From: Amycolatopsis sp. DSM 110486 | GTDB lineage: Bacteria > Actinomycetota > Actinomycetes > Mycobacteriales > Pseudonocardiaceae | Assembly: GCF_019468465.1 (NCBI RefSeq) | Contig: NZ_CP080519.1 | Span: 6,627,001 to 6,691,000 of the forward strand | Reading direction: 5' to 3' | DNA: 64,000 bases | Part shown: piece by piece, positions 4,826 through 60,020 of the stretch | Layout of the letters: each line of letters starts with the position of its first letter | Numbering within the stretch: the first letter of the stretch is position 1 | Notes under the pieces: model-generated | Told to the model about the DNA's origin: nothing | The model's database searches: none | The model's input: only the letters and a program-made list of their open reading frames with translations | Position numbers and translations under genes: made by a program

Positions 4826-4856
4826 TTGCCAGTTGCGCAACAGTGTGTGTATAGTC
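4826..4856 (+). promoter_or_regulatory. promoter P1 of the TATAGTC family
   Basis: TTGCCA (4826-4831), 18-bp spacer, TATAGTC (4850-4856). The palindrome GTTGCGCAAC (4832-4841) lies inside the spacer and could be an operator. The first gene starts at ATG 4863, only 7 nt past the -10 hexamer, so its mRNA should be leaderless. Confidence 0.9.
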
Positions 4857-4862
4857 AGTTTC

Positions 4863-5075
4863 ATGAACACGCGAACCGCCACCAACGACACCCCCAACGA
4901 CCCCCTGCTGACACCCGCACAGGTCGCCAAGATCTGCGGCGTCAGCCACACCACCGTGCAGAACTGGATCAACAAAGGCCAGCTGGCGTTCGTCCCCATG
5001 CCCAGCGGACGCAAGAAAGTCCGCCGCAGCGACCTCCCCAAGGCCCAGTACGCCGACGGCCGCACCACCGACTGA
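4863..5075 (+). CDS. excisionase/MerR-like helix-turn-helix protein
   Basis: 70 residues. The winged HTH_17 pattern is clear: LLTPAQVAKICGVSHTTVQN, then WINKGQLAF and a conserved arginine and basic wing (GRKKVRRSDL). Such proteins act as excisionases or as small repressors. Start ATG 4863 is set by promoter P1, which leaves no room for an upstream start. It is the first gene of the replication block, so control of replication or copy number is a likely job. No integrase is near, which argues against excision. Confidence 0.85.
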   Translation: MNTRTATNDTPNDPLLTPAQVAKICGVSHTTVQNWINKGQLAFVPMPSGRKKVRRSDLPKAQYADGRTTD

Positions 5076-5152
5076 CCACACCACCAGAAACGCTGAGGGG
5101 AAATCAGCACCATGAACAGCAACAACGCGGCCGTACCTGGGGAGGCGGCCCG

Positions 5153-6259
5153 ATGAGCTTCCAATCAGTGCAGTGGGCGCTGGAGTTCTCTCCGGTCGCC
5201 GACACCTACGAGCGGCTGATCCTCGCCGCCATGGCCACGGCATCCGACGACCTGGGCTGCGGCACCTGGCTGGGCTGGAAGAAGCTGTCCACGGCCGCCA
5301 TGTGCGACCGGACCACCCTCTACAAGCGCTTGAAGGCGATGGAAGAGCGCGGCGTGATCGCGCGCGGAGACCAGCGTCTCGCCGAGTACATCAACGCAGC
5401 CACGCGGCCTGTCGTGTGGGACATCATGATCCCTCGTTCGTGGTACTCGGACGCCCAGTGGGCGGAGTTCCAGCGGACCCGGACCGGGCGCGGCCTGGCG
5501 CCGGTCGACCCGGAAACCCGACCGGACATCGCCGCGCCGGAACAGGTTGGCCGACGCAAGCGCAGCGATGCCGGCAAGAGCCGGGAGAACCGCGAGGACG
5601 TTGCTACTAGCAACGGGGTTGCTAACAGCAACGGGTCACCCGAGGCGCCTGAAGGCGTTGCTAACAGCAACGGGGTTGCTAGTAGTGACCCGGAGACGTT
5701 GCTAATAGCGACAGAGGACGTCGCTAGTAGCAACCCGAATAAGTCATTTAAACCAATCATGTTTAACCAGTTAGAGAAAGAAGACTCGCGCCTCGGCGCG
5801 AGCGCGTCGACGACGCCTGTCGTTCGGGACTTGAACGAGGGCAGGGACGACGTCGAGCGCCTGTGCGAGCACCTGGCCAAGCGGATCGAGGAGCACGGCT
5901 CGAAGCGGCCGACGATCACGAAGGCGTGGCGTGACGCCGCCCGGCTGCTGCTGGATGCGGACGGCCGCACTGAGGAGCAGGTGCACACGGCGATCGACTG
6001 GTGCCAGGACGACGAGTTCTGGCGGGCGAACATCCTGTCGCTGCCGAAGCTGCGCACCCGCTACGACCAGTTGCGGCTCCAGGCGCAGCGGTCCGGGTTG
6101 CGGGTCGTCAACGGCGGTAAGCCATCGACGGACGACAAGGTGGGCGGTCTGCTGGCCCGTGCCGGTATGGATCTCGGGGCGCTCATGTCGGGCGACTCGA
6201 CGGCTCGTGTCATCCCGGGCGGCGAGCCGAGGCAGATTGCGGGAGGTGATATGCGGTGA
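5153..6259 (+). CDS. replication initiator, phage lambda O-like, with the origin inside the gene
   Basis: 368 residues from ATG 5153, with GGAGG at 5141. Residues 1-120 look like a winged-helix domain (DRTTLYKRLKAMEERGVIAR). Residues 149-212 are a low-complexity linker encoded by six iterons and an AT-rich stretch. Residues 230-300 form the helical C-terminal domain common in actinobacterial and phage initiators (TITKAWRDAARLLL, AIDWCQDDEFWRANILSL). The layout matches lambda O, where the N-terminal domain binds iterons located in its own gene and the C-terminal part recruits the helicase. A helicase gene follows. Confidence 0.85.
   Translation: MSFQSVQWALEFSPVADTYERLILAAMATASDDLGCGTWLGWKKLSTAAMCDRTTLYKRLKAMEERGVIARGDQRLAEYINAATRPVVWDIMIPRSWYSDAQWAEFQRTRTGRGLAPVDPETRPDIAAPEQVGRRKRSDAGKSRENREDVATSNGVANSNGSPEAPEGVANSNGVASSDPETLLIATEDVASSNPNKSFKPIMFNQLEKEDSRLGASASTTPVVRDLNEGRDDVERLCEHLAKRIEEHGSKRPTITKAWRDAARLLLDADGRTEEQVHTAIDWCQDDEFWRANILSLPKLRTRYDQLRLQAQRSGLRVVNGGKPSTDDKVGGLLARAGMDLGALMSGDSTARVIPGGEPRQIAGGDMR
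5600..5734. repeat. six palindromic iterons, putative origin
   Basis: Copies of GTTGCTANYAGCAAC lie at 5600-5614, 5618-5632, 5657-5671, 5675-5689, 5698-5712 and 5720-5734. Three are perfect matches and three differ by one or two bases in an arm. Start-to-start spacings are 18, 39, 18, 23 and 22 bp. In protein they read as variants of V-A-x-S-N, a disordered linker. Confidence 0.9.
5735..5790. other. AT-rich stretch beside the iterons, probable unwinding element
   Basis: About 56 bp of markedly AT-rich sequence (runs such as AATAAGTCATTTAAACC and TGTTTAACC) in an otherwise GC-rich region, directly next to iteron 6. Iterons plus a flanking AT-rich element is the standard layout of an iteron origin. 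Confidence 0.75.
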
Positions 6260-6642
6260 TGACCAAGGAGGAGACGGCCGCGCTGCTGGCGATCGTGACG
6301 TCGTTCGACCACCGCAATGCGGGCGAGAGCGACATCTGGGCCTGGACCAAGGCCGCCGAGGTCGCTGGTTGGTCGTTCGAGGAGGCGGCGGCCGTAGTGG
6401 TCGAACACCTCTCGGTCGGCACGCCGGGCAAGTTCCTGGAGCCTCGGTACGTCACCCAGCTCATTCGGGAGCGCCGAACGAAGCGGCTGCTTCCGGGGTG
6501 GTGTGGCGAGTGCGGGTCGGAGTTCCCGGACGAGCGAGCGAAGAAGAACCCGCGGTTTCGCTATCACACGAACCCGAAGACCGAGGAGCGTGTGATGTGC
6601 GCCTGCCACCCGAACCACCCGCAGCAGAAGCGTTTGCCCTGA
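6259..6642 (+). CDS. small replication-module protein with cysteine pairs
   Basis: 127 residues, starting on a TGATG overlap with the initiator. The N-terminal 75 residues are helical (EETAALLAIVTSFDHR, IWAWTKAAEVAGW). The C-terminus carries CGEC and a later CAC-H, a possible zinc site. Its position between initiator and helicase is that of helicase loaders or replisome organisers in phages, so an accessory replication role is inferred. No named family is recognised. Confidence 0.75.
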   Translation: MTKEETAALLAIVTSFDHRNAGESDIWAWTKAAEVAGWSFEEAAAVVVEHLSVGTPGKFLEPRYVTQLIRERRTKRLLPGWCGECGSEFPDERAKKNPRFRYHTNPKTEERVMCACHPNHPQQKRLP

Positions 6643-6652
6643 TACGAAAAGC

Positions 6653-6686
6653 GCCCCCGCCTAACTGGTCAGAGCTAGGCGGGGGC
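6653..6686 (+). terminator. strong hairpin between initiator operon and helicase
   Basis: An 11-bp stem (GCCCCCGCCTA with its complement) and a 12-nt loop. No T-run follows, so it may act as an attenuator or mRNA stability element that sets helicase dosage below initiator dosage. Confidence 0.65.
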
Positions 6687-6727
6687 AGCGAACACACGCG
6701 ATCCCACGGAAAGGAACCATTCAAACC

Positions 6728-9242: not shown

Positions 9243-9297
9243 CGCTGTGTGCGCGCCCGCCTGCGGGGCGCAACTGAGCGCAACCGATACTGACCCG

Positions 9298-10515
9298 GTG
9301 AGTCGTGAGGGGAAAACACCTGCTCCTGCCGTGCCAGCCCGGCATCTGGTGCTGATGCACCCGTTCGCCGGGGTCGACGGGGTCCGGGAGCTGAACCAGC
9401 GGGCCGGGATCCGCGTCGGCAACGACGCCGACGTGTCCGGCCCGATCACCGCCCGCCGCTCCTACCGGGCGTCACGCGGGTTCTACCTGTCCGATCTGGA
9501 CGTCGCCGTCGTCAACGCCGACCCGGACCAGGCCGCCGCGCTCGCCCGCGGCGCCCGGGAACCCGGGCCGATCGCGTTCATCGAGCCGGAACGCACCCTG
9601 CGCGTGCGCCCGGTCACGCCGCCAGCCACGGGGGCGGGGGAGGACAGCGGAGAGTTCCAGGTGCCGCACCTGCCCTTCACGTGGGGGTTGCAGGCCGTCG
9701 GCGCCGCCGCGACGCGCGCGACCGGCAAGGGCGTGCGGCTGGCCGTGCTGGACACCGGCATCGACATGGAGCACCCGGATTTCGTGCACAAGCTCGGGAT
9801 CGCGCAGTCGTTCGTGGCGGACGAGACCACGCAGGACGTCATCGGCCACGGCACTCACTGTGCCGGCATCGCGACCGGCCCCCGGACGCTCGAGGTTTTC
9901 CCCGGCTACGGGGTCGCGCCGGAGGCCAACCTGTACGTCGCGAAGACCGTCGACAAGGCAGGGGAGGGGCAGGACGGTGCGGTGCTGTCGGCGATCGCGT
10001 GGGCGGTGCGGCACAAGTGCGCCGTGGTGTCGATCTCCCTCGGGTCGCCTGTGCGGCCGGACGAGTTCTACTCCGTGGTGTTCGAGCAAGTCGCCGCGCG
10101 CGCCTTGCGGGCCGGAACGCTGATCGTCGCCGCGGCGGGGAACGACTCGGACCGGGTGAAGAACCTCGCCGCGCCGGTCGACCATCCGGCGAACTGCCCC
10201 AGCGTGCTCGCCGTCGGCGCGATCGGCCAAGACGACACGGTGGCGCCGTTCAGCAACATGACGGTGAACCTGTCCGGCGGCGCCGTGGACGTCGCCGCGC
10301 CCGGTGTAGACGTGTTCTCGGCCTGGATCGGCGGGTACCGGACGCTGTCGGGCACGTCGATGGCGACACCGCACGTCGCCGGGGTCGCGGCACTGCTGTC
10401 GCAGGCGACCGGCGCACGGGGTTGGGAGCTGTGGGCGCGGCTGCAAGGGTTCGCGCGCCGGCTGGAGGCGCCGTCTCGCGACGTCGGCGCCGGCCTGGTC
10501 CAGGCGCCCCGGTGA
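9298..10515 (+). CDS. subtilisin-family (S8) serine protease without signal peptide
   Basis: 405 residues. The catalytic triad is intact: D152 (LDTGID), H184 (GHGTHCAG), S354 (GTSMATPHVAG), with oxyanion N282. Residues 15-105 look like an inhibitor-type prodomain (HLVLMHPFAG, FIEPERTLRV). No export signal is present, so this is an intracellular or non-classically released protease. GATACT (9286-9291) lies 6 nt before GTG 9298, so the gene is probably leaderless and has its own promoter. A role in maturing or removing element proteins is possible. Confidence 0.9.
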   Translation: MSREGKTPAPAVPARHLVLMHPFAGVDGVRELNQRAGIRVGNDADVSGPITARRSYRASRGFYLSDLDVAVVNADPDQAAALARGAREPGPIAFIEPERTLRVRPVTPPATGAGEDSGEFQVPHLPFTWGLQAVGAAATRATGKGVRLAVLDTGIDMEHPDFVHKLGIAQSFVADETTQDVIGHGTHCAGIATGPRTLEVFPGYGVAPEANLYVAKTVDKAGEGQDGAVLSAIAWAVRHKCAVVSISLGSPVRPDEFYSVVFEQVAARALRAGTLIVAAAGNDSDRVKNLAAPVDHPANCPSVLAVGAIGQDDTVAPFSNMTVNLSGGAVDVAAPGVDVFSAWIGGYRTLSGTSMATPHVAGVAALLSQATGARGWELWARLQGFARRLEAPSRDVGAGLVQAPR

Positions 10516-10790: not shown

Positions 10791-10821
10791 TTGCAACAAA
10801 ACGCAACACGTGCGTATAGTC
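10791..10821 (+). promoter_or_regulatory. promoter P2 of the TATAGTC family
   Basis: TTGCAA (10791-10796), 18-bp spacer containing CGCAAC, TATAGTC (10815-10821). It drives the gene at 10861 with a normal leader of about 33 nt. Confidence 0.85.
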
Positions 10822-10860
10822 AGATGTCGCGAGGTGAACACCGCCACCGAAAGGACCCCC

Positions 10861-11763
10861 ATGCCCACCACACACCACCTGGCGTCCAACGCCGCACCCG
10901 TCCGCTTCGAGCTCGACTCCGGCACTGCCGAAGTCCAGATCATCACTTCGGATGCCCTCGACATCGCCGCCATCCGCATCGAGGCCGAGGGCCCGCAGGC
11001 CGAAGCCGCCGCGAAGAACGCCACCCTCATCGAGATCGGCGGCACCGTCCGTCTCCAGATCCCCGCTATGTCCGTAGTGACCTCGGGGAACAGCACCACC
11101 GTGATGTCCGGGAACGGCAATATCTACGTCAGGCAGACCGCCGATGTCGTCGACGGCGAGCTGACCGGCGTCACCATCGATGGCGACGGCAACGTGGCGA
11201 TCGGCGGCATGGTTGGCGGCGGCGCGTCGAACCGCATGCGCATCTCCGTCGCGCTGCCCAAGAACGCCGACGGCATCGGTCCCGTGGTGGGCGTCAAGTC
11301 CGCTACCGGCCCCGTGGCCATTTTTGGCGAGTACGCCCACGTCGTCGTGGAATCCCGCACCGGCAGTGTGTTCGTCGAGTCATCGGAACACGTCGAGATC
11401 ACCACGCAGACCGGCAGTGCCGAGATCGACAACGCGGGCTTCGCGAAGGTCGAAACCCGCACCGGCCGCGTGTCGCTCGGGACGGTGACTGGCAAGGCCG
11501 TCGTGCGCACACAGGTCGGAGCAGTGCGCGTGCGCTTGGCCGCTGACGCGCGCATCGAAACCAGGACCGGGCCGATCGACGTCGACATGGTCACCGTGGC
11601 CGGCAGCCTGGAAACCCAGACCGGTTCGATCCATGCCTGCACCTCCACGGCGAAGCTCTCGGCGAAGTCGCGGACGGGGCGGATCAGCGTGATCGCCGAC
11701 GCGGGCGTGGACAAGTCCCTCATCGTCGCGTCCTCGCGCACGGGCGGCGTCACCGTCCAGTAG
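10861..11763 (+). CDS. DUF4097-like repetitive beta-strand protein
   Basis: 300 residues from ATG 10861 behind GAAAGGA. After an N-terminal beta region, about 18-residue units recur with the core S/T-R/Q-T-G-x-V/I (ESRTGSVF, TTQTGSAEI, ETRTGRVSL, ETRTGPIDV, ETQTGSIHA, KSRTGRISV, SSRTGGVTV). This is the pattern of the putative-adhesin DUF4097 family, a right-handed beta-helix. No signal peptide is seen, so an intracellular scaffold is more likely than a surface adhesin. It has its own TATAGTC promoter. Confidence 0.8.
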   Translation: MPTTHHLASNAAPVRFELDSGTAEVQIITSDALDIAAIRIEAEGPQAEAAAKNATLIEIGGTVRLQIPAMSVVTSGNSTTVMSGNGNIYVRQTADVVDGELTGVTIDGDGNVAIGGMVGGGASNRMRISVALPKNADGIGPVVGVKSATGPVAIFGEYAHVVVESRTGSVFVESSEHVEITTQTGSAEIDNAGFAKVETRTGRVSLGTVTGKAVVRTQVGAVRVRLAADARIETRTGPIDVDMVTVAGSLETQTGSIHACTSTAKLSAKSRTGRISVIADAGVDKSLIVASSRTGGVTVQ

Positions 11764-11778: not shown

Positions 11779-11809
11779 TTGCGCGTAGTTCGCGTGACTG
11801 TGTATAGTC
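11779..11809 (+). promoter_or_regulatory. promoter P3 of the TATAGTC family
   Basis: TTGCGC (11779-11784), 18-bp spacer, TATAGTC (11803-11809), with another TTGCGC exactly 10 bp upstream (11769). The ATG at 11810 touches the -10 box and cannot be in the transcript, which rules it out as a start. Confidence 0.9.
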
Positions 11810-11878
11810 ATGAACAGTGCCGCTGAAAGCCCCCCGACAGCGACACCCACCACCAACACACGCGAGAGGAGAGCACCA

Positions 11879-11944: not shown

Positions 11945-12262
11945 ATGACCCAGCCCAAGGAAATGACCCCGCACGAGGCACTCGCCGCGTGGGTCAAGTT
12001 CGCCGACCTCTTCGACCAACTGGTCAACAACCTCGACGGGTACCTCCCCGCGATCGACGGCAAGCCCGCCATCGACAACGGCACCGGCGACGACGGCGAA
12101 GACGACAACGACCGCAAGACCGTGCTCGCCGCCATGAAGGACGCCCGCGCCGCCGCCGACTTCGTCGCCGGCCGCTACGCGCGCTACGCCTTCAACTCCC
12201 AGCCCCAGCCCGCTCAGCAGCCCGTCCACCAGCCCGCCCAGTACACCTACCCGCAGCAGTAA
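11945..12262 (+). CDS. small acidic protein with Gln/Pro-rich tail
   Basis: 105 residues. The helical first part (HEALAAWVKFADLFDQLVNN) is followed by an acidic GTGDDGEDDNDR patch and a QPQPAQQPVHQPAQ tail. The AAGGA site is 12 nt before ATG 11945. It is co-transcribed with the large basic membrane protein at 12296, and its acidic charge could offset or chaperone that partner. That is inference; no family is recognised. Confidence 0.7.
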   Translation: MTQPKEMTPHEALAAWVKFADLFDQLVNNLDGYLPAIDGKPAIDNGTGDDGEDDNDRKTVLAAMKDARAAADFVAGRYARYAFNSQPQPAQQPVHQPAQYTYPQQ

Positions 12263-12295: not shown

Positions 12296-13927
12296 ATGTC
12301 CGACACCGCCAAGACCGGCGCCAACAGCAAGAACACCAAGCCCGAACCGAAGATCCCCACCCCGGACCAGCCCACCACCCCGGCCAAGCCGAAGATCTGG
12401 AAGTCCCCGCGCGCGCTCGCCGTCGCCGTCCCCGCCACCGTCGCCGGGGGCGCCACCATCGGCACCCAGTTCGGCCCCACCGGGCTCCTCGCGGCCGGAG
12501 CCATCACCGCCGGAACCGTCGGCGGCACCTACGCCGTCAAGAAGTTCGGCCCCGGCATCTCCGCCCGCCTCGGCCTCCGCCGGGCCGCCAACGCGCTCGG
12601 CAAGGCCGCCGACCGCTCCAAGGGCGGACGCGAACGCGACAAGATCCTCGGCTCGCGCCCCGGCAGCTCCCGCACCACCACCCGCCGCACCACCAGCAGC
12701 GGCGGAGGCGGGGGCGCGCGTCGCGGGGGACTGTCCGGCCTCGTCGGCAAGGGCAAGGGCGGCGGCATCGGCGGATCACGCGGACGCGCTGGAGGCTCCC
12801 TGTCCCGCATGCTCGGCGGCGGCCGTGGTGGCGGCAAGAAGACCGGCCTCGGCACTCGCCGTGCCGCAGCAGCCGCGATGCAGCGCTCCCGTGGCGGCGG
12901 CATCGCCTCCCAGCTCCGCTCCAAGCGCTCCGCCAACCCCCGCACGGCCGGAAGCACCAAGAGCAGCTCCCGCCCCGGCAGCGGCGCACCCAAGGGCCGC
13001 ACCACCGGCAGCAAGAACAGCAAGAGCCGAAGCGGCGGCCTCGCCGGGCTCATGGGACGCAGCACGAAAGGCCGCAGCACCGGCAGCGGCGCGGGACGCG
13101 GGACCGGACGCACCAACGGCCGCGGCAGCGGCGCCGGCCGCACCGGCGGCAAAGGCCTCCTCGGCGGCCTCGGCCGCAACCGCAACAACGGCACCGGACG
13201 CAACACCAAACGACGAGACACCAACACCACCGGCAAGAAGAACCCGAACAGCCAGAACACCAGCCGCAACCTCGGAGACCTCGCCGACAAACTCCGCAAC
13301 CTCCACAACCCCCGCCAGCCCAAGTGGACAAACGGCGACCCAGCCCGCCAACAGCACCCCAGCGCCAAGGCACTCCGCGACCTCGACAAGCTCGAACAAA
13401 ACACCGGAAAACATGGACAAACCGACAATGCAACTGAGTCGGACCGTCCTGATATCATGGTCACCAGGCCAAACGACACCAATTCCGCAGGAGCAACAGG
13501 AGAAACGACCATGGCCAGCAACTCCGGCAAGCACCGCGCATCCATCGTCCGCGCCAGCGACACCGCCGCCACCGGCACCGCAACCCGAGGCAACCGGTTC
13601 AACGGCATCATCGAGGCAACCGGCGCGCCGATGGACCACTTCGAGTCCGCGACCGAGCTGCACGACGGCATGGGTGACGCCGCGGTGGCCGTCGAGAACG
13701 TCGGCGGCATGCTCAAGCGGTTCGCCGACGCCGGCAAGGGCTCCGTCCGGCTCGCCCCGGGCATGAGCGACGTCCTCGACGAGTTCAACACCGCCGCGAA
13801 CGGTGTTGCCGAGTCCCTGCGTGAGGGTCAGACCACGTTCAAGCGGGTCCACGAGCAGGACTTCGAGCGGATCGAGCGTGGCGGCCAGCAGGAATTGGCG
13901 TGGGACGTCGGTCGCAACGCTCGGTAG
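12296..13927 (+). CDS. large basic membrane protein, possible conjugal spread (Spd-like) protein
   Basis: 543 residues. Residues 40-85 hold two glycine-rich membrane helices (RALAVAVPATVAGGAT, GLLAAGAITAGTVGGTY). Residues 95-340 are extremely rich in Gly, Arg, Ser and Lys, a likely DNA- or RNA-binding stretch. Residues 405-543 form an acidic helical C-terminus. Basic membrane proteins beside transfer genes are a feature of actinomycete conjugative elements, hence the tentative call. ATG 13511 inside the gene has an excellent ribosome binding site (AACAGGAGAAACGACC), so a separate 138-residue C-terminal product may also be made. Confidence 0.7.
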   Translation: MSDTAKTGANSKNTKPEPKIPTPDQPTTPAKPKIWKSPRALAVAVPATVAGGATIGTQFGPTGLLAAGAITAGTVGGTYAVKKFGPGISARLGLRRAANALGKAADRSKGGRERDKILGSRPGSSRTTTRRTTSSGGGGGARRGGLSGLVGKGKGGGIGGSRGRAGGSLSRMLGGGRGGGKKTGLGTRRAAAAAMQRSRGGGIASQLRSKRSANPRTAGSTKSSSRPGSGAPKGRTTGSKNSKSRSGGLAGLMGRSTKGRSTGSGAGRGTGRTNGRGSGAGRTGGKGLLGGLGRNRNNGTGRNTKRRDTNTTGKKNPNSQNTSRNLGDLADKLRNLHNPRQPKWTNGDPARQQHPSAKALRDLDKLEQNTGKHGQTDNATESDRPDIMVTRPNDTNSAGATGETTMASNSGKHRASIVRASDTAATGTATRGNRFNGIIEATGAPMDHFESATELHDGMGDAAVAVENVGGMLKRFADAGKGSVRLAPGMSDVLDEFNTAANGVAESLREGQTTFKRVHEQDFERIERGGQQELAWDVGRNAR

Positions 13928-20043: not shown

Positions 20044-20556
20044 TCAGCGGGTGACGGTGGCCGCGTGGCCGTTCTCGATGTGCTGGGCGCTCGTGCTGCC
20101 CGTCGCCTTGGCCATGCCGTAGGCGGCGCCGATCAGGGCGAGACACTCGGCGCAGTCGTCGTGCTCGGCGGTGTGCGTGACGGGGGCGAAGTAGGGGTTG
20201 TAGCCGCGGCGGTCGTCCTTGAGGACCATCGGCTGGCCGTTGAAGGTGACGATGTCGCCCTCGTTGAGCTCGATGACCTTCACCGGCCGCTTCTGCGAGT
20301 AAGCCGAGATCACCGGCGGGTGGGAGATGACGGCGACGTAGGGGCCGGGGAGGATGGGGCCACCGGACTCGTGACGGGCTTCGCCGTCGGGGCCGACGTA
20401 CATCAGGTCGGCGTTGAGGGTGCGGCGTTGGTAGCGGCTGTAGATGCGGTAGGTGACCCAGGTGCCGTCCGCGGCGGGGTTGTACTGACTGGGGGTGTCC
20501 CAGTAGTCGGCTTCGTTGTAGTGGCTGGCGACGAGGGTGGCGGTGTGGGTGGTCAC
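20044..20556 (-). CDS. first protein of the P4 operon, unknown
   Basis: 170 residues from GTG 20556 behind AGGAGG. Beta-rich middle (WVTYRIYSRYQRRTLNADL, PYVAVISHPPVI), a KVIELNEGDIVTFNGQPMVL strand pair, then H-DDCAECL, a possible metal site. It is the first gene after promoter P4. No family is recognised. Confidence 0.7.
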   Translation of the reverse strand: MTTHTATLVASHYNEADYWDTPSQYNPAADGTWVTYRIYSRYQRRTLNADLMYVGPDGEARHESGGPILPGPYVAVISHPPVISAYSQKRPVKVIELNEGDIVTFNGQPMVLKDDRRGYNPYFAPVTHTAEHDDCAECLALIGAAYGMAKATGSTSAQHIENGHAATVTR

Positions 20557-20593
20557 TGGGTTCCTCCTGGTGTCCCGTCCTGCTGTTGTTTGT

Positions 20594-20624
20594 GACTATA
20601 CACATAGACTGTAACCCGTGGCAA
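20594..20624 (-). promoter_or_regulatory. promoter P4 of the TATAGTC family
   Basis: On the minus strand: TTGCCA, 18-bp spacer, TATAGTC, then ACAAACAACAG at the expected start point. It drives six genes from 20556 down to 18287. Confidence 0.9.
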
Positions 20625-20930: not shown

Positions 20931-21182
20931 TCACTTGCCGAGTTCGGCGAGGGCGGCCTTCTCGCAGCTCTTGCAGAGCTTCCGTCCGCCGCGCAGGCGG
21001 GCGGTCTCGAGGATCTCGGTGAGGTTGTCGCTGGTGGGGCCGATGGCCCAGCGGACGGTGCGGGAGAGGGCCGAGCAGGCGTTGAGGGAGTAGTTGAGGC
21101 TGTCGTCCGAGCTGTGGGTCCGGATCTGGAGGCCGTCGATGTGGTTGGTGGTCCGGTTGTACTTGAGGGTGTAGGTGGCCAT
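20931..21182 (-). CDS. small protein ending in an LCKSC motif
   Basis: 83 residues from ATG 21182 behind GAGAGGA, first gene after P5. One cysteine near the middle (NACSALSRT) and a terminal RKLCKSCEKAA. The same order, a lone Cys followed some 35 residues later by R/K-L-C-x-x-C, is seen in the proteins at 27173 and 27465, which suggests a small zinc-binding family of the element. Confidence 0.7.
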   Translation of the reverse strand: MATYTLKYNRTTNHIDGLQIRTHSSDDSLNYSLNACSALSRTVRWAIGPTSDNLTEILETARLRGGRKLCKSCEKAALAELGK

Positions 21183-21211
21183 TTCGGTTCCTCTCTCGCG
21201 CTGTTGTTAAT

Positions 21212-21242
21212 GACTATACACAACACCAGCGCAACAGGGCAA
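21212..21242 (-). promoter_or_regulatory. promoter P5 of the TATAGTC family
   Basis: Minus strand: TTGCCC, 18-bp spacer holding TGTTGCG, TATAGTC, then ATTAACAACAGCG. It drives the genes at 20931 and 20646. Confidence 0.9.
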
Positions 21243-23287: not shown

Positions 23288-23315
23288 CGTGTGCCCCTCC
23301 GTCGCTGTTGTAAAC

Positions 23316-23346
23316 GACTATACATCACGCGTCGCAACAGTGGCAA
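23316..23346 (-). promoter_or_regulatory. promoter P6 of the TATAGTC family
   Basis: Minus strand: TTGCCA, 18-bp spacer holding TGTTGCG, TATAGTC, then GTTTACAACAGCG. It drives five genes ending at 21311. Confidence 0.9.
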
Positions 23347-26055: not shown

Positions 26056-26093
26056 GGTCTGGCCTGGCTCCCGTGTTCGTCGTTGTTGTTATC

Positions 26094-26124
26094 GACTATA
26101 CACGTTGAGCAAAACAGAAGGCAA
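26094..26124 (-). promoter_or_regulatory. promoter P7 of the TATAGTC family
   Basis: Minus strand: TTGCCT, 18-bp spacer, TATAGTC, then GATAACAACAACG. It drives five genes down to 24758. Confidence 0.9.
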
Positions 26125-28089: not shown

Positions 28090-28132
28090 TGTGTTCTCCT
28101 GGTGTCGGTCCCGGTGTTCCGTTGTTGCTTAC

Positions 28133-28163
28133 GACTATACACACATGGGTTGCGGTGTGGCAA
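28133..28163 (-). promoter_or_regulatory. promoter P8 of the TATAGTC family
   Basis: Minus strand: TTGCCA, 18-bp spacer, TATAGTC, then GTAAGCAACAACG. It drives six genes down to 26282. Confidence 0.9.
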
Positions 28164-31161: not shown

Positions 31162-31192
31162 GTGGTGTGTCTCCCTCAGGCGTGTTGTGATC

Positions 31193-31222
31193 GACTATAC
31201 GCAACGGAGCGCAACAGAGCAA
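31193..31222 (-). promoter_or_regulatory. promoter P9 of the TATAGTC family
   Basis: Minus strand: TTGCTC, 17-bp spacer holding TGTTGCG, TATAGTC, then GATCACAACACG. It is divergent from P10, with only about 60 bp between the -10 boxes. Confidence 0.9.
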
Positions 31223-31236
31223 CACACGTTCGGGTC

Positions 31237-31267
31237 AGCGACTGACTCGCGACCTCTGTGTATAGTC
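31237..31267 (+). promoter_or_regulatory. promoter P10 of the TATAGTC family
   Basis: TATAGTC (31261-31267) then AAATACAACAACG. The -35 region lacks the usual TTGC; this is the only member of the family without it. Confidence 0.75.
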
Positions 31268-31295
31268 AAATACAACAACGCGAGAGAGGCCCCGC

Positions 31296-33391: not shown

Positions 33392-33429
33392 GGTTCCTGG
33401 CGGAGGTGGCGTGACGCGACACCCTCGTG

Positions 33430-33459
33430 TTGCCCTGGGTTGTGGTGATGTGTATAGTC
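33430..33459 (+). promoter_or_regulatory. promoter P11 of the TATAGTC family
   Basis: TTGCCC (33430-33435), 17-bp spacer, TATAGTC (33453-33459), then GTAAACAACAGG. It drives six genes to 35756. Confidence 0.9.
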
Positions 33460-33507
33460 GTAAACAACAGGACGACGAGCCCAACACCACAACCCCAGGA
33501 GGACCCC

Positions 33508-36193: not shown

Positions 36194-36224
36194 TTGCCAG
36201 GCCTCGCGCGTGTTGTGTATAGTC
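36194..36224 (+). promoter_or_regulatory. promoter P12 of the TATAGTC family
   Basis: TTGCCA (36194-36199), 18-bp spacer, TATAGTC (36218-36224), then AGAAACAACAGCG. Confidence 0.9.
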
Positions 36225-36256
36225 AGAAACAACAGCGACGAGACAGGGGAAACACC

Positions 36257-41445: not shown

Positions 41446-42339
41446 TCACTTGGCGGGCTCGGTCTCGACCTTGCTGACGGTCACGAACGTGCAGCGCCCG
41501 CCGAGCTTGGTCTGGGGGACGTCGTCGCGGGTGTCGTGCTTCTTCACCGCGCCAGTGATGGTCATGACGTCGCCGCGCTGGGCATCAAACGCGGCCTTCG
41601 CGGAGGAGCTGACCGTCACGACCACGCCTTCGTCGGCGCCGGTTCCCTCGACGACCAGGAACATGCTGGCGCTGCGGGGGCCGTAGGGGCCGTAGCCGCC
41701 TTCGTTGAAGCTGGTGACGACGACCTTGCCGGTCACGGTGACCCTGTCGCCGATCACCCCGGCGTAGCGGCAGGTGGCGGCGTAGGCGGCGTGCGCCTTC
41801 TCCTCGTCGATCAGGCGCTGCGCGTAAGCGGCCTGCTTGGCGGTGAGCGGCTGGCGCTGCGACTTGTAGGCCAGTTCGTAGAGGTGCCCGTCCACGGCGG
41901 AGGGGTCGTTCTGGGTGGCTTCGACGATGGCGTCCAGCTCGCGGGCGAGCTCCGGGTTGGCGGCCTTCCAGGTGACGAGCTCGGCGGCAGCGGCGGCGGC
42001 TTGCTCGGCGACCTTCTGCTCGCGGCGGCGGTCGGCCTTCCAGTTGGTGCGTTCGCGCTTCTTGGCCTGCTCGATACCGTCCTTGAAGGCGAGGCGAACG
42101 GCGGTGCCGTGGCAGTAGTAGCAGATGCCGCCGTGGATGCCCATGTACTCCCAGCGGGTGCCGTTCTCGCAGCGGTCACACCCGTCGTAGATGACGCCGT
42201 TGCGGCCTTCGAACAGGACGCGCTTGCGGGTGCCGGTGGTGAGGGTGATCGGCCGGGCGGTGCGCTGGCATTCGATGCGGCCGATGGTGGTCCACTCGCC
42301 GGTCTCGATGGTCTGGGTGGGGGTGGCGGTGGTGTTCAT
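41446..42339 (-). CDS. zinc finger plus OB-fold-like protein, paralogue of 38840
   Basis: 297 residues from ATG 42339 behind AGGAGGAG, first gene after P13. CDRC (54-57) and CYYCHGTA (73-80) form the zinc element. A helical, basic middle follows (EQAKKRERTNWKADRRREQK). The C-terminal OB-like region includes GDRVTVTGKVVVTSFNEGG and GDVMTITGAVKKHD. The two GDxVxVTG units suggest a nucleic-acid-binding barrel such as a single-strand binding protein. Confidence in the binding role is moderate. Confidence 0.75.
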   Translation of the reverse strand: MNTTATPTQTIETGEWTTIGRIECQRTARPITLTTGTRKRVLFEGRNGVIYDGCDRCENGTRWEYMGIHGGICYYCHGTAVRLAFKDGIEQAKKRERTNWKADRRREQKVAEQAAAAAAELVTWKAANPELARELDAIVEATQNDPSAVDGHLYELAYKSQRQPLTAKQAAYAQRLIDEEKAHAAYAATCRYAGVIGDRVTVTGKVVVTSFNEGGYGPYGPRSASMFLVVEGTGADEGVVVTVSSSAKAAFDAQRGDVMTITGAVKKHDTRDDVPQTKLGGRCTFVTVSKVETEPAK

Positions 42340-42368
42340 CGGGCTCCTCCTGCGTCGCTGTTGTAAAT

Positions 42369-42398
42369 GACTATACATACGCGATCGCAACACGGCAA
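42369..42398 (-). promoter_or_regulatory. promoter P13 of the TATAGTC family
   Basis: Minus strand: TTGCCG, 17-bp spacer holding TGTTGCG, TATAGTC, then ATTTACAACAGCG. Confidence 0.9.
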
Positions 42399-42436
42399 CA
42401 CTGGGCGGAACCCGCCGCAACTCACCCCTGAGTACA

Positions 42437-42487: not shown

Positions 42488-42868
42488 CTACAGGTGATTG
42501 CTCCCATGGTTTGCCCCACCACACGAGCATTCGCACGACGGGCCCGACGCGGACATGCACACCCCGTTGCACACCCTCTCCGGGTTGAACGTGAACCGGC
42601 CGCCGACGAACCACACGATCCGGTCGTGCTCCGGGCACACAAGTCCCGCCGCGCGCATCGCCGTGTTGTGGTCCCGGTCGCCCATCTCGTAGAGCGGCCA
42701 GTCTCGCCCGGCCTCGGCCATCAGTACCAGAACCTCGCCGCGCCCAAACCCGTGCGGCACACGCGCAACCTGGGGGTGGCTTCCCTGCTCGACCACGCGC
42801 CGGTGCTTGCACCCCTTCGTGGGGCAGCGGCCGAAGTAACGCAGGACCTTCGCCTCAGTGCTCGTCAT
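42488..42868 (-). CDS. cysteine-rich small protein
   Basis: 126 residues; ATG 42868 overlaps the previous stop (ATGA). RCPTKGCKHRR near the N-terminus, VCPEHD in the middle, and a terminal CNGVCMSASGPSCECSCGG give about nine cysteines and at least two metal sites. No family is recognised. Confidence 0.7.
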   Translation of the reverse strand: MTSTEAKVLRYFGRCPTKGCKHRRVVEQGSHPQVARVPHGFGRGEVLVLMAEAGRDWPLYEMGDRDHNTAMRAAGLVCPEHDRIVWFVGGRFTFNPERVCNGVCMSASGPSCECSCGGANHGSNHL

Positions 42869-43182
42869 CGCGCGACGTTCTTGAGCAGGCGCACGATCAG
42901 CGCGGCGACCTCGGCGTCCGTGGTTGCGCCCAGTGTGGCGACTGCCTCGCAGTCGGCTCCGCTGGTGGACTCGGGGTAGGCGTAGAAGTCGCCCGGGTTG
43001 CCGAACGGCACGTCATCGATCCACTCTCCGGGACCGGCGACGATGGCGTAGTAGCCGTCCTCGTCGACCGGACCGGCGGCGATGATCGGTTCACGCGTGG
43101 CGTCGGCCATCTCCGCAGGAAAGCCTTGTTCTCGAACGAGCTCGACGACCTTGATCATGCTGATGGTGTAGGGCTCGGCCAT
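42865..43182 (-). CDS. 105-residue hypothetical protein, first in the P14 operon
   Basis: ATG 43182 follows GGAGGA. Helix (ISMIKVVELVREQGFPAEM), then beta strands with acidic loops (DEDGYYAIVAGPGEWIDDV). No family is recognised. Confidence 0.65.
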   Translation of the reverse strand: MAEPYTISMIKVVELVREQGFPAEMADATREPIIAAGPVDEDGYYAIVAGPGEWIDDVPFGNPGDFYAYPESTSGADCEAVATLGATTDAEVAALIVRLLKNVAR

Positions 43183-43216
43183 GGTTCCTCCGGGTGTCTC
43201 GCGTGCTGTTGTGAAC

Positions 43217-43246
43217 GACTATACGAACCGTCGCGCACGCTGGCAA
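43217..43246 (-). promoter_or_regulatory. promoter P14 of the TATAGTC family
   Basis: Minus strand: TTGCCA, 17-bp spacer, TATAGTC, then GTTCACAACAGCA. Confidence 0.9.
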
Positions 43247-43265
43247 CGGGACCGGTTGCGATGGC

Positions 43266-48162: not shown

Positions 48163-48356
48163 CGATCGGTGTCTCCGTCGTCGTGGACCGGGATCACGGT
48201 GTTGGTGGGGATGAGGCGTCGCGTCGCGCCGGTCTCCGGGCGTCGGAGGGTGAGCCACTCGCCGTAGTTGCCGTTGAGGCCAACCACGTTCCACACGGCG
48301 CCGTGTTCGGTGAGGCGCACGCGGTCGCCGTAGGCAGCCATGTAGTCGTCGCTCAT
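48159..48356 (-). CDS. 65-residue beta-rich protein
   Basis: ATG 48356 overlaps the previous stop (TGATG). A small beta barrel is likely (GDRVRLTEHGAVWNVVGLNG, GEWLTLRRPETGATRRLIP), of the kind seen in short phage proteins. No function can be given. Confidence 0.6.
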   Translation of the reverse strand: MSDDYMAAYGDRVRLTEHGAVWNVVGLNGNYGEWLTLRRPETGATRRLIPTNTVIPVHDDGDTDR

Positions 48357-48529
48357 CAGAGGTTCTGGTTGATGACGTTGCCGATGAAGGCGGCGATGGC
48401 CTCGGCGCCGTCGCGGAGGAAGTCGATGATGTTGGTGACGAGGTGGGATGCGCCTGCGGGGTTGTCGATGACGTAGATGAGCGCGATGGCGATGGGGGCG
48501 AAGACGAAGAAGATGCGGCGCCAGTTCAT
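48356..48529 (-). CDS. 57-residue membrane protein, first in the P15 operon
   Basis: ATG 48529 follows AGGAG. One membrane helix (RIFFVFAPIAIALIYVI), then DNPAGASHLVTNIIDFL and an amphipathic helix. It resembles the protein at 48741 in order and length, so the two are paralogues. It heads a 17-gene minus-strand operon. Confidence 0.7.
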   Translation of the reverse strand: MNWRRIFFVFAPIAIALIYVIDNPAGASHLVTNIIDFLRDGAEAIAAFIGNVINQNL

Positions 48530-48563
48530 GGGGTTGCTCCTGGTGGTTGCGTGCGTTGTTTCG

Positions 48564-48594
48564 GACTATACGGCCGCGATGCAACGAAGCGCAA
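48564..48594 (-). promoter_or_regulatory. promoter P15 of the TATAGTC family
   Basis: Minus strand: TTGCGC, 18-bp spacer with TTGC, TATAGTC, then CGAAACAACGCA. It probably drives 17 genes from 48529 to 43266; no terminator is visible in between. Confidence 0.85.
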
Positions 48595-49202: not shown

Positions 49203-49233
49203 TTGCGCAGTGTTGCGTCAAGTGCGTATAGTC
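49203..49233 (+). promoter_or_regulatory. promoter P16 of the TATAGTC family
   Basis: TTGCGC (49203-49208), second TTGCG 10 bp later, 18-bp spacer, TATAGTC (49227-49233), then GAGAACAACGG. It drives nine genes to 53021. Confidence 0.9.
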
Positions 49234-49275
49234 GAGAACAACGGAAGGAACCACAGACCTGAAGGAGCCGCACCG

Positions 49276-49503
49276 ATGGCCATCACCCGGACCGAGAACA
49301 CCGACGACGCGGACACCGTCGTCACCACCATCGGCCTCGTGACCATCCACCGCACCTACCACCGCAACGGCACCGGCAGCGTCCACGCCTACGACAACAC
49401 TCCCGGCACCAAGAGCCCGTACATCGCCTTCAAGGGCCTCCAACGGGGCGCCGCCGACCGCAAGTTCCAGCAGCTCGCCGAACGCGCTGCGCACGCCAAA
49501 TAG
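49276..49503 (+). CDS. 75-residue hypothetical protein, first in the P16 operon
   Basis: ATG 49276 follows GAAGGAG. Beta strands (TVVTTIGLVTIHRTYHRNGT) and a helix (DRKFQQLAERAAHA). No family is recognised. Confidence 0.65.
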   Translation: MAITRTENTDDADTVVTTIGLVTIHRTYHRNGTGSVHAYDNTPGTKSPYIAFKGLQRGAADRKFQQLAERAAHAK

Positions 49504-54317: not shown

Positions 54318-54350
54318 TGGCGCACATATCGCCACAATCACCACACGAAG

Positions 54351-56377: not shown

Positions 56378-56420
56378 GGGGTGGTGGGTCCTCGCCGGTG
56401 AGTGTGTCGGGTTGCGGTGG

Positions 56421-56483: not shown

Positions 56484-56525
56484 ATGGCTAGCGTGAGTTG
56501 CGGTGAGTGTGGCAATATCCTCGCC

Positions 56526-56825
56526 ATGCCGACCATGTACCTCGCGCAATGGGCGAAAGCGCAGAACCCGCCTGTTGCGACCTCCACCGCCTACCGGTGG
56601 TTCCGGGAGGGCAAGTTGCCTCCTGGTGTCAACGCACGCAAACAGCAGTCGGGAACCATCGTCGTCGAGCCCGTAGACCCGCTCGCCGAAATCGACCCCG
56701 AAGCGCTCGTGCGTCGCCTCGCCGAAGCCGGGTACGTGGTCCTCACCCGAGAGCAAGTAAGGAGCATCGACGAGTCCCTGTGCGTCGATCGCAACGACGC
56801 CCACCAGGAGACCCCACCGTCATGA
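56526..56825 (+). CDS. MerR-like HTH regulator upstream of the translocase
   Basis: 99 residues from ATG 56526. CAATAT (56513-56518) lies 7 nt upstream, so the mRNA is probably leaderless. The domain YLAQWAKAQNPPVATSTAYR then WFREGKLPPGVNARKQQ is a MerR/excisionase-type HTH. It overlaps the translocase start (ATGA) and is a likely autoregulator acting at the GTTGCGC palindromes. Confidence 0.75.
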   Translation: MPTMYLAQWAKAQNPPVATSTAYRWFREGKLPPGVNARKQQSGTIVVEPVDPLAEIDPEALVRRLAEAGYVVLTREQVRSIDESLCVDRNDAHQETPPS

Positions 56826-59428
56826 GCGCCCCCACCGAACCCGACATCATCGACGCCGAGATCGTCGACGAACACACCACCGAAGCGTGGAACCCAGACA
56901 TCCGGTGGTTCCACCCCGCCGTCACCGGCCTGTGCGTGTACGGCATGGGTTTCATCCCCCACTGGATGAACCTCTCCGGCCTCGTCATGCTCCCCACCGG
57001 CCTCGCCCTCACCGCCGCCGGCATGGTCGCCACACGGTGGGCCATCGACGAAGGCACCTACGGCGCCCGGCACGAGAAGCACGGCATCTACCTCGCCGCC
57101 GCGGCCGGCGCGAGCGCCACCGCGTGGCTCGTGTGGCTCAACGGCGAGAAGCCGTTCACCCCGACCGCCCTGGGCGCCCTCGTCATGTGGATCATGACCT
57201 TCGGCGTCCTCTACGCCCTGTTCCGCTCCAAGGAGCCGCAGCGCAAGGCCGCGCGCGCGATGAAGGACGAGGAAACCCGAGTCCAGACAGAGGAGTACAT
57301 CGCCGAGGTCGCCCGGGAACGGCGCGTCAGCGGCTACCTCGAACTGTGGGAGCCGTGGCTGCGCAAGGCCGGGGTCAAGGGCATCGACGTCGAGGACGGT
57401 ATCGAGACCAAGGCCGGGTACACGCTCACCCTGGCCGCTGACCTGGTCGAGGACACCAAGGGCAACACCACCATCCCCACGACGGCAACCCTCCTCAACG
57501 CCATCGAACCTCTCGCGATCCTTGCGTCGAAGCACTACAAGAAGGAGGGAATCGAGGTCGGTGTGAACCAGCTCCGCCTCGAAGAGACCACGACCGCGCA
57601 CGAATGGCTGCTGCACGTCTCGACGAAGCAGCCGCTGAAGAAGTCGATCCCGCACCCGGGGCCGCGTGAGCCACGGTCGATCAACGAAGAGGCTGAGCCG
57701 GGCATCTTCGAGGACGGTCATCCGATCAAGCTGTCGCTGCTCGGCCGGCACGTGTTCCTGCTCGGCGGGACGGGTTCGGGCAAGTCGGTGTGGGCGCACA
57801 ACCTGATCGACAACGTCTTGGCGCCTGTCGACAGCTTGGCGTGGTTGTGCGGGGTGAAGAAGATCCTCCCGCTGGTGGGCCCGTGGCTGTACCCGTGGCT
57901 GACGGGGCAGACCGACCGGCCGGTGATCGACCGTATCGGCGGCGAGAACGTCGACGAGGTTCTGCTGATGCTGGCGGACTTCTACATGATCTGCTCGTTG
58001 CAGAACAAGCGGAACGGGTTCGAGTCGAAACGGAAGGTCGGCCGCGAGGAACCGGCGATCACGCTGTTCATCGACGAGTCGTCGTCGTTGTGCCGCATCA
58101 AGGAACCGAAGGTCACGACCTTCGACGGGCAGACGTGGACCGCGTCGGAGCTGATCAACGCGATCTGCGAGGTGGCTCGTTCATCGGGGAACGGGGTGGT
58201 GCTGATCAGTCAGCACGGGCTGGTCGACGCGCTGGGCGAGCAGGGCACGAAGATCCTGCGAAACGTGACGATCCGCATCGTGGGCAAGACCAACACGGCC
58301 CACGACGGCCAGTACACGCTGAACGGGATCCGGAACGTCGACACCACTCAGCTGTACAACAACACCGCGTACGTGCAGCCCGACCAGGAGAGGCCGCGGG
58401 CGATCCCGTCGAAGGCTTTGTACTTGGACGAGCCGGAGCAGATCGCTCCGTTGGCTGTGGCGTACACCGCTCGGCGGCCGTCGATGCCGAAGTGGCTTGT
58501 CGAGGAGATGGGCGAGTCGTACACGGGCCGGTGGGACAAGGACCGGCAGCAGGACCTCGCCGACTTCCTGGAATTCAAGGGCCTGTCGTACCCGCACGTG
58601 CGTGCGGACGTGTCGGGTGTTGCGCTGCTCGGTGAGGGTGGTTCTGGCGCGGTTGCGGCCAGTGATTCCCCAGGTGAGTTGACCGGTTCCGCTGATCGGG
58701 GGACACTGCCGGTTGTGCGAACCAATACGGCCGGGCAGGTCAACCCTCCTGCCGGGGTCGCTCACCAGGAGGTTTCGATGGGTAGCGCCATTGTGCATGG
58801 CAACCCCGTGAAGGACAGTCTCGCTCGGTTGAAGGAGAAGGCCGAGGCCGCGCGGGAGCAGCAGCAGCGGTTCTTGGACCTGCGCTCGAAAGTTCTGCAC
58901 GCCATCACCGCGTCGAACGCGCCCGCGTGGATGCCGGCAGGGATGCTGGCGATCGCGTCGAAGCTCGCGGCTCCGGACGTGTCCGACGAGGAGTTGGATG
59001 CTGTCGTGCAGGAACTGGTGGAGTACTACTCCGACGAGGCTTTCGACGCGCCACCGGAGACGCGAGACGGCAAGCTGGGCTGGGACCGTGAGGTGCTGAA
59101 GGCGGCGATCCGCCGGCAGCTCGAGGAGGAGCGCGACGGCGTGCCGGAGCAGCGCACCGGCGACGACGTCGAGGCCACGCCGGTGGTCGTCGCTGACGTG
59201 CTGGGCGCGATCGGCGAGTACGGCGAGGACGATTGGGTTCTGGTCGGCGAGCTGGGCGGCATGGTCGGCGCGGTGCAGGCCGGGGAGGACCCGCGTCTGG
59301 CGGCGGCTCGGTTCGGCCAGTCGCTTCGCGTGGCGCCGTGGGACCTGCCGGAGGAGGCGTTCAAGCGCTCGGCCAACGGCAAGATGGTGTCGGTGCGCGA
59401 GCTGCGGAAGGCGGCGCTCACGCGCTGA
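56822..59428 (+). CDS. FtsK/TraB-type DNA translocase for conjugation
   Basis: 868 residues, starting on the previous stop. Two to four membrane helices lie in residues 33-135. The motor domain has Walker A GGTGSGKS (315-322), Walker B ITLFIDESSS and an RSSGNGVVLISQHGL segment. The C-terminal 250 residues are helical and include a coiled coil and a possible winged-helix region. This is the TraB/TraSA class, which moves double-stranded plasmid DNA between mycelia without a relaxase by recognising short repeats. Confidence 0.9.
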   Translation: MSAPTEPDIIDAEIVDEHTTEAWNPDIRWFHPAVTGLCVYGMGFIPHWMNLSGLVMLPTGLALTAAGMVATRWAIDEGTYGARHEKHGIYLAAAAGASATAWLVWLNGEKPFTPTALGALVMWIMTFGVLYALFRSKEPQRKAARAMKDEETRVQTEEYIAEVARERRVSGYLELWEPWLRKAGVKGIDVEDGIETKAGYTLTLAADLVEDTKGNTTIPTTATLLNAIEPLAILASKHYKKEGIEVGVNQLRLEETTTAHEWLLHVSTKQPLKKSIPHPGPREPRSINEEAEPGIFEDGHPIKLSLLGRHVFLLGGTGSGKSVWAHNLIDNVLAPVDSLAWLCGVKKILPLVGPWLYPWLTGQTDRPVIDRIGGENVDEVLLMLADFYMICSLQNKRNGFESKRKVGREEPAITLFIDESSSLCRIKEPKVTTFDGQTWTASELINAICEVARSSGNGVVLISQHGLVDALGEQGTKILRNVTIRIVGKTNTAHDGQYTLNGIRNVDTTQLYNNTAYVQPDQERPRAIPSKALYLDEPEQIAPLAVAYTARRPSMPKWLVEEMGESYTGRWDKDRQQDLADFLEFKGLSYPHVRADVSGVALLGEGGSGAVAASDSPGELTGSADRGTLPVVRTNTAGQVNPPAGVAHQEVSMGSAIVHGNPVKDSLARLKEKAEAAREQQQRFLDLRSKVLHAITASNAPAWMPAGMLAIASKLAAPDVSDEELDAVVQELVEYYSDEAFDAPPETRDGKLGWDREVLKAAIRRQLEEERDGVPEQRTGDDVEATPVVVADVLGAIGEYGEDDWVLVGELGGMVGAVQAGEDPRLAAARFGQSLRVAPWDLPEEAFKRSANGKMVSVRELRKAALTR

Positions 59429-59450
59429 GGTAGAGCTCGACTGCTTTTCG

Positions 59451-59485
59451 GAGGCCGTCCCGGTGTTACGCCGGGGCGGCCTCTT
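59451..59485 (+). terminator. hairpin terminator after the translocase
   Basis: GAGGCCGTCCCGG pairs with CCGGGGCGGCCTC (one wobble) around 7 nt, followed by TTG. Confidence 0.8.
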
Positions 59486-59555
59486 GCTGTGTCCGGTTCG
59501 GGTACGATTTGCCTGCGCGGTTTGGGGGAACCGGCGTTGTGGAGGAGATTGCCCG

Positions 59556-59927
59556 GTGGGCATCGCGAAGAAGGTTGCGGCTGTGGCCGCGCTCGGTGCG
59601 GCTGCTGTGGTCGTGACCGCGGGTACGGCGTCGGCGGCCGAGGTTGGCCAGTCCGGCAGCTACACCCAGTCAGTCGTCAAGGAGACCAGCTCGTACACCA
59701 AGACGGTGGAGCAGGAGACCGCGACGTACACGAAGGTGCTGGTGCGCGAGGGTAAGTGCTACCTGGTGCAGCCGGCTGGTGGTCTGCTCTACGTGGGCGA
59801 CTTCCAGGATGGCCACATCGTGCACCCGGGCGGCAAGGGCACGCTGCTGGACCTGAACCTGGGTCTGGACCTGCGTGTGCTCCAGCAGCCGAACGGCGAC
59901 AGTCTGATCAAGGTGGCGACGCACTGA
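59556..59927 (+). CDS. secreted protein with three Y-T-K/Q repeats
   Basis: 123 residues from GTG 59556 behind GGAGGAG. A signal peptide ends near TASAAE. The mature start has three similar units (GSYTQSVVKETS, SSYTKTVEQETA, ATYTKVLVRE), then a beta domain (CYLVQPAGGLLYVGDFQDG). TACGAT at 59503-59508 may be its -10. No family is recognised. Confidence 0.7.
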   Translation: MGIAKKVAAVAALGAAAVVVTAGTASAAEVGQSGSYTQSVVKETSSYTKTVEQETATYTKVLVREGKCYLVQPAGGLLYVGDFQDGHIVHPGGKGTLLDLNLGLDLRVLQQPNGDSLIKVATH

Positions 59928-59944
59928 TCGGGTAGCGCCTGGAT

Positions 59945-59974
59945 AACCCCCGTCCTTCATGGGCGGGGGTTTTC
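59945..59974 (+). terminator. rho-independent terminator
   Basis: AACCCCCG pairs with CGGGGGTT around 11 nt, followed by TTTTC. It lies just before promoter P17. Confidence 0.9.
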
Positions 59975-59989
59975 TTATGCCTTCACGTG

Positions 59990-60020
59990 TTGCGCTGAGT
60001 TGCGCAACTCGCGTATAGTC
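59990..60020 (+). promoter_or_regulatory. promoter P17 of the TATAGTC family
   Basis: TTGCGC (59990-59995), second TTGCGC 10 bp later within the palindrome GTTGCGCAAC (59999-60008), 18-bp spacer, TATAGTC (60014-60020). It drives the WhiB operon. Confidence 0.9.

Follow-up and report, generated by a model that had tools for sequence, protein, structure and literature searches.

Streptomyces phage phiC31 has several early promoters that closely resemble one another and carry conserved inverted repeats, together with dispersed repressor sites. This is the nearest functional parallel to the system described here, a family of near-identical predicted promoters in a large prophage of Amycolatopsis sp. 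DSM 110486. The phiC31 motif differs from these promoters and its operators are palindromic, and the two systems are likened by description, not by sequence. The analysed window is a stretch of 64,000 nucleotides (6,627,001–6,691,000 of the 10.96 Mb contig NZ_CP080519.1). All coordinates are window-based (position 1 is contig base 6,627,001), with negative values to the left of the window. The genome under study (11 Mb) is denoted G000, and G113 is another genome of the same family.

A second precedent is phage L5 (cluster A), which has a 183-residue repressor with an N-terminal helix–turn–helix (HTH); its sites, about 24 in number, are dispersed and for the most part intergenic (PMC9283540, PMC5712189). 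The cluster CA phage Rasputin has 25 such sites (PMC13313380). The prophage resembles this type in combining a repressor with dispersed sites, the repressor sites here being putative and the repressors likened by arrangement. The L5 sites are 13 bp asymmetric stoperators, for which a role in stopping elongation has been proposed and which require no promoter, whereas a predicted promoter is present at every site in G000. The L5 consensus, GGTGGc/aTGTCAAG, is absent from the prophage at zero or one mismatch and occurs 11 times at two mismatches versus five in one shuffle; the 13 bp consensus itself varies among cluster A phages (PMC9283540, PMC5712189).

Finally, the start-associated sequences of cluster K mycobacteriophages typically lie 3–7 bp from start codons and are proposed to serve translation initiation (PMC3203893). 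Like them, the prophage sites are short repeats that precede many small non-structural genes. An initial annotation of the window, made from the sequence alone, had likened its sites to such actinophage repeats, but the G000 sites differ in position and proposed role, and the prophage has no match to the consensus GGGATAGGAGCCC with two or fewer mismatches. A literature search that reached few subscription journals found, among the papers listed, no published account of the promoter family or of promoters in the related phage PIS 136.

The promoter family

The heptamer TATAGTC occurs 17 times in the window, whereas 100 shuffles gave 0.35 on average and never more than 3, so the sites reported in the initial annotation are real. 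Alignment shows that G precedes the heptamer at all 17 sites and that TTGC stands at −35 in 16 of them with a spacer of 17 or 18 bp, as had been claimed; the exception is the site at 31261. Thirteen sites had been said to continue with ACAAC. The sequence is exact at 12, and the thirteenth, at 28139, reads GCAAC. The description of a uniform set spread over 55 kb was right about uniformity and understated the range, since five further GTATAGTC sites lie in the prophage beyond the window (about −8.7, −5.2, +70.8, +71.7 and +109.6 kb).

Across the whole prophage there are 22 copies of GTATAGTC, from 37 in the genome. The −35 element is TTGCNN at 21 of the 22 and absent at one, with a spacer of 18 bp in 16 cases and 17 bp in 5, and ACAAC is exact at 15. 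A second TTGC lies within the spacer, 7–10 bp below the first, at 11 sites. By our own simple gene caller, all 22 fall outside called genes, and the predicted start point ranges from 1 nt inside to 129 nt before the next same-strand start codon. Regarding their distribution, 21 sites lie between −8.7 and 71.7 kb, in the non-structural arm; none is found from 71.7 to 109.5 kb, the structural module has none at all, and the remaining site at 109.6 kb lacks ACAAC.

The pattern GTTGCN{17,21}GTATAGT was then used to compare prophage and host. All 20 matches in the genome lie inside the prophage, which bears out the expectation of one set nearly absent from the host core genome, and the reversed-pattern control gave none. 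Among 397 genomes of the order, 27 contain the pattern, and more than two copies occur only in G000 (20) and G113 (4). Of eight GTATAGTC copies with one mismatch, none has TTGC at the −35 place; the family therefore behaves as all-or-none. Host sites with a perfect TTGACA and TANNNT number 54, none in the prophage and none with TATAGT when the list was read by eye. Together with the genome-wide counts of GTATAGTC and of the longer pattern, this led us to reject a host origin of the motif. Of the 15 GTATAGTC copies outside the prophage, the three that were read have the form CTGTATAGTCCA, and two of these three lie inside GGACTGTATAGTCCA. These three (G000:C1:219853-233858, L338 and L339) lie near 220–234 kb, where several genes look TetR-like by eye, and they may be operators of host regulators. 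A dyad at −10 (GTA...TAC), noticed by eye, was dropped as few G000 sites keep it. These comparisons show a predicted promoter family confined to the prophage, with every member outside the called genes and a short way ahead of a start codon.

A clue to the start point comes from six sites, one in G000, two in G113 and three in PIS 136, at which an ATG with an open frame falls exactly at TATAGT-N7; one of the PIS 136 sites (44372, at an IS200-like gene and not GGTATAGT) is doubtful. This coincidence suggests that transcription starts at the A after TATAGT-N7, in which case ACAAC would straddle the start point, between AC and AAC. ACA is the consensus at the predicted start in all three phages.

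The prophage

Flanking sequence was read for 40 kb leftward and 100 kb rightward of the window, which proves to lie inside one element of about 128.6 kb, from about −10.6 to +118.0 kb, or 1.2% of the G000 genome. PHROG matches in the element include terminase, portal, major head protein, tape measure, endolysin, integrase, a RecE-like exonuclease and a RecT-like protein. A query from the left flank matches 59 of 60 same-genus genomes, some weakly. Comparison with four same-genus loci shows a chromosome that is continuous across the insertion place and puts the breakpoints near −10.57 and 118.0 kb. In two of these loci the two flanks overlap or join with no more than about 50 bp between them; in the other two, 0.15–0.3 kb separates them. 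Given the phage structural, lysis and integrase genes and the empty site in relatives, the element is an integrated tailed prophage. The plasmid or mating setting envisaged in the initial annotation, and a conjugative element likewise, are ruled out by the phage genes found in the flank reading and by the empty site in relatives. The 13 bp repeat GACCGGCGCCGCT at −10592 and 118020, one of several repeats of 12–14 bp at the prophage ends, is a likely candidate for the core.

Promoter families in two related phages

A related prophage in G113 carries 10 GGGTATAGTC sites; it was read from 540 kb upward, and its counts cover that stretch. The isolated Saccharomonospora phage PIS 136 (JX006077.1) is a distant relative with 17 TATAGT, 16 of them as GGTATAGT, and the consensus CGGTATAGTAGACAACA; its first 33 kb have no GGTATAGT promoter. 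Reciprocal best protein pairs with the G000 prophage number 27 for the G113 stretch and 42 for PIS 136. PIS 136 shares with the G000 prophage an FtsK-like protein (41% identical), WhiB, a phage-type endonuclease, DnaB and a repressor homologue in the same place. However, its genome is 94.9 kb, its information profile has no fixed −35, and about half of its half-sites (defined below) lie downstream. Two face-to-face PIS 136 promoters overlap at 38248-38253 in the palindrome ACTATACCGGTATAGT.

Membership of the family is conserved along with the motif. Among site-headed first genes with an orthologue in G113, four of six are site-headed there too, compared with none of 21 other pairs (hypergeometric 0.0009), which supports the common regulon proposed in the initial annotation. 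The corresponding values for PIS 136 are two of three against 1 of 39 (hypergeometric 0.01). WhiB is among the shared site-headed genes in both comparisons. Two related phages are shown to carry their own versions of the predicted family.

In a wider search of viral_contigs, at least 120 stretches matched a looser pattern and 16 a stricter one, and at least 118 stretches of genome_contigs matched the stricter pattern. Among the matches listed, each stretch had one match, and the 80 genome titles listed belong to unrelated organisms, so these matches were taken as chance. FtsK and repressor alignments found no relatives in viral_contigs, and a megablast of window positions 1-24000 against phages gave no match.

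A candidate repressor and its putative half-sites

The explanation that we favour, and regard as moderately probable, is that the sites serve as early lytic promoters: host RNA polymerase would transcribe from them, and in the lysogen one HTH repressor would shut them all off. Each site would be a sigma-70-type promoter (TTGC, 17–18 bp, TATAGTC) starting at the A after TATAGT-N7, and would be read by host RNA polymerase with the main sigma factor upon infection or induction. In the lysogen, the repressor would keep the early arm silent by occupying GTTGC half-sites that extend over the −35 element and spacer; upon its loss, all operons would fire together.

The candidate is an HTH protein of 172 aa (−9627 to −9109), divergent from the RecE/RecT operon, with counterparts at the same divergent position in G113 and PIS 136. 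Protein alignments show its homology to phage proteins annotated as immunity repressors. At E<0.01 there are 103 matching phage records; of the best 20 of these 103, 13 are annotated as immunity repressor and 4 as transcriptional repressor. Residues 9–81 are 46.6% identical to proteins annotated as immunity repressor in the Gordonia phages Wocket and KappaFarmDelta, the homology to Gordonia and Mycobacterium phages being limited to the N-terminal HTH part. Identity to PIS_098 is 31% over 96%. The G113 copy scores above the HTH_3 cut-off, and a profile search of solved structures gave weak matches, the best of which are HTH proteins such as 434 Cro (E 0.14).

Half-sites (GTTGC or GCAAC) were counted per 100 bp, with the −35 element masked, at promoter sites and at other intergenic gene starts, with P values from a bootstrap. 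The density is 1.45 versus 0.75 in G000 (P 0.003), 1.20 versus 0.66 in G113 (P 0.04) and 1.06 versus 0.46 in PIS 136 (P 0.002). In G000, GTTGC is enriched in the spacer at −18 to −15. The gap between the repressor gene and its neighbouring promoter, with the promoter excluded, holds 5, 4 and 2 half-sites in G000, G113 and PIS 136 versus 1.3, 1.3 and 0.7 expected. Dispersed sites that carry GTTGC pairs always have a promoter alongside. In three phages with homologous repressors, two of which (Wocket and Azula) are close kin, TTTGCC occurs 3, 2 and 3 times in the repressor–cro gap versus 0.06, 0.02 and 0.08 expected. In our reading, these may all belong to one repressor family with related half-sites, and we infer that the G000 repressor binds at the promoters.

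Several observations weigh against silencing by one repressor. First, it leaves the invariant −10 unexplained, with 22 exact GTATAGTC copies and the eight one-mismatch copies without TTGC; the 54 host TTGACA sites use many −10 words, TATAGT never among them, which leaves room for a phage factor. Second, the half-site counts are small and the G113 enrichment is modest. Some of the enrichment is background, since the prophage as a whole has about twice the GTTGC frequency of the flanking chromosome. Occlusion of the −35 element fits PIS 136 poorly: of 25 half-sites in its 130 bp windows, 14 (13 reading GCAAC) are downstream of the −10 start, and at about 38% of its 16 sites no half-site occurs in the 100 bp counted. 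Third, the Gordonia and Mycobacterium repressor–cro gaps hold 0, 0 and 1 copies of GTTGC/GCAAC, and the stretches read of those phages have no TATAGT. Fourth, the G000 repressor has no Pfam match even at E 0.1, and PHROGs give it just one weak regulator match. Finally, the FtsK-like protein has matches at E 1e-30 in 9 of 390 family genomes, including G000 and G113, and in the stretches read of the seven others none shows a dispersed family. TATAGT is absent from five (G542, 41.8 kb; G006, 140 kb; G005, 20.7 kb; G180, 20 kb; G010, 20 kb), and is present three times in 75.9 kb of G524 and once in 6.5 kb of G154. Several of these stretches are short, so the absence is weak, and word counts reveal other repeated words in them. 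The three G524 copies are GTATAGT inside one 40 bp palindromic spot (G524:C28:111213-111250).

Alternative explanations

The alternative that survives best, though we consider it rather unlikely, is activation by a phage WhiB protein. By binding the host sigma factor, this protein would direct RNA polymerase to the TATAGTC sites, and the site-headed WhiB operon would close a positive loop that switches on the whole set. That operon is site-headed in all three phages, and the second WhiB protein has an extra HTH that could read DNA; the matches of this HTH to HTH_23, GerE, Sigma70_r4_2 and HTH_38 are all below their cut-offs. The all-or-none −10 and its disuse at host TTGACA sites also speak for an activator. 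However, the WhiB operon is one of 22 and itself needs the same promoter first, and transcription of the RecE/RecT and replication operons would presumably be needed before any WhiB protein exists. Both the −35 and −10 elements look like ordinary sigma-70 elements. WhiB proteins generally work from the −35 side, whereas the invariant part here is the −10. It is because a repressor does not account for that invariant −10 that WhiB activation keeps some weight. A broader form, to which we likewise give a low probability, is that a lineage of large temperate actinomycete phages carries a factor, perhaps the WhiB pair, that makes host RNA polymerase demand exactly TATAGT. If true, there would be an all-or-none promoter code over some 20 dispersed operons, almost unused by the host and kept while the remaining promoter drifted between phages.

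The sites could also be ordinary strong host-type promoters near the optimum with no shared regulator, the GTTGC repeats being −35 elements plus background. TTGC-17/18-TATAGT indeed comes near a sigma-70 promoter, and the prophage as a whole is rich in GTTGC; even so, degenerate members are missing, conservation extends past the sigma elements in three phages, and second half-sites occur in the spacer and beside the repressor, which make this explanation improbable. The dedicated sigma factor proposed in the initial annotation would suit a uniform motif confined to the element, but it is very improbable, as the motif is sigma-70-like and all 86 Sigma70_r2 matches of G000 lie outside the prophage (a sigma factor of very divergent sequence would escape, and part of the prophage proteins were Pfam-scanned).

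Features of the window and its surroundings

The window sites, the genes they head and the genes used in the comparisons are listed in Table 1.

Table 1. Predicted promoters and selected genes in the window
Feature	Position	Strand	Comment
Predicted promoter, −10 first T 4850	4826..4866	+	Predicted start 4863 is the ATG of an HTH_17 gene (leaderless); heads replication genes
O-like replication initiation protein	5153..6259	+	Operon of site 4850
Predicted promoter, −10 at 10815	10791..10831	+	Heads 10861-11763, called DUF4097-like in the initial annotation; no Pfam match at E 0.001
Predicted promoter, −10 at 11803	11779..11819	+	Heads 11945-12262 and 12296-13927; alternative start 11810 possible
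Predicted promoter, −10 first T 20600	20584..20624	−	Heads 20044-20556, then small genes
Predicted promoter, −10 first T 21218	21202..21242	−	Heads 20931-21182
Predicted promoter, −10 first T 23322	23306..23346	−	Heads 22925-23287
Predicted promoter, −10 first T 26100	26084..26124	−	Heads 25792-26055; orthologue also site-headed in G113
Predicted promoter, −10 first T 28139	28123..28163	−	Heads 27787-28089; orthologue site-headed in G113, not in PIS 136
Predicted promoter, −10 first T 31199	31183..31223	−	Heads 30904-31161; divergent from site 31261
Predicted promoter, −10 at 31261	31237..31277	+	Heads 31296-31559; sole one of 22 without TTGC at −35
Predicted promoter, −10 at 33453	33429..33469	+	Heads 33508-34032
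Predicted promoter, −10 at 36218	36194..36234	+	Heads 36257-36592
Predicted promoter, −10 first T 42375	42359..42399	−	Heads 41446-42339
Predicted promoter, −10 first T 43223	43207..43247	−	Heads 42865-43182
Predicted promoter, −10 first T 48570	48554..48594	−	Heads 48356-48529 and a run of small genes
Predicted promoter, −10 at 49227	49203..49243	+	Heads 49276-49503 and a run of small genes
FtsK/SpoIIIE-like protein	56822..59428	+	Query for finding relatives
Predicted promoter, −10 at 60014, with GTTGCGCAAC palindrome	59990..60030	+	Heads WhiB operon
WhiB protein, 74 aa	60066..60290	+	Orthologues site-headed in G113 and PIS 136; candidate activator (alternative model)
WhiB domain then C-terminal HTH, 123 aa	61335..61706	+	Same operon as first WhiB

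Other genes of the prophage were noted in passing. The major head protein frame is 1538 aa long (L010:1426-6042, about 85.4–90.0 kb, beyond the window), with a PHROG match that covers residues 3–588 only. A 723 aa protein beyond the window (L009:2717-4888, minus strand) has a TerD-domain match just under the cut-off and is 57% identical in the G113 prophage. By eye, 1310-2758 and 9355-10515 of the window look like a peroxidase and a subtilisin-like protease, and genes beside the related prophage in G113, at the border of the stretch covered (G113:C1:540009-543349), resemble the queuosine/7-deazaguanine pathway.

Implications

The promoter family is a signature by which the early genes of a little-known group of large actinophages, rich in small genes of unknown function, may be found and ordered. 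The family also offers a direct test case for control by one repressor, or by a WhiB activator, over some 20 dispersed promoters. As PIS 136 has already been isolated, such tests may be practical.

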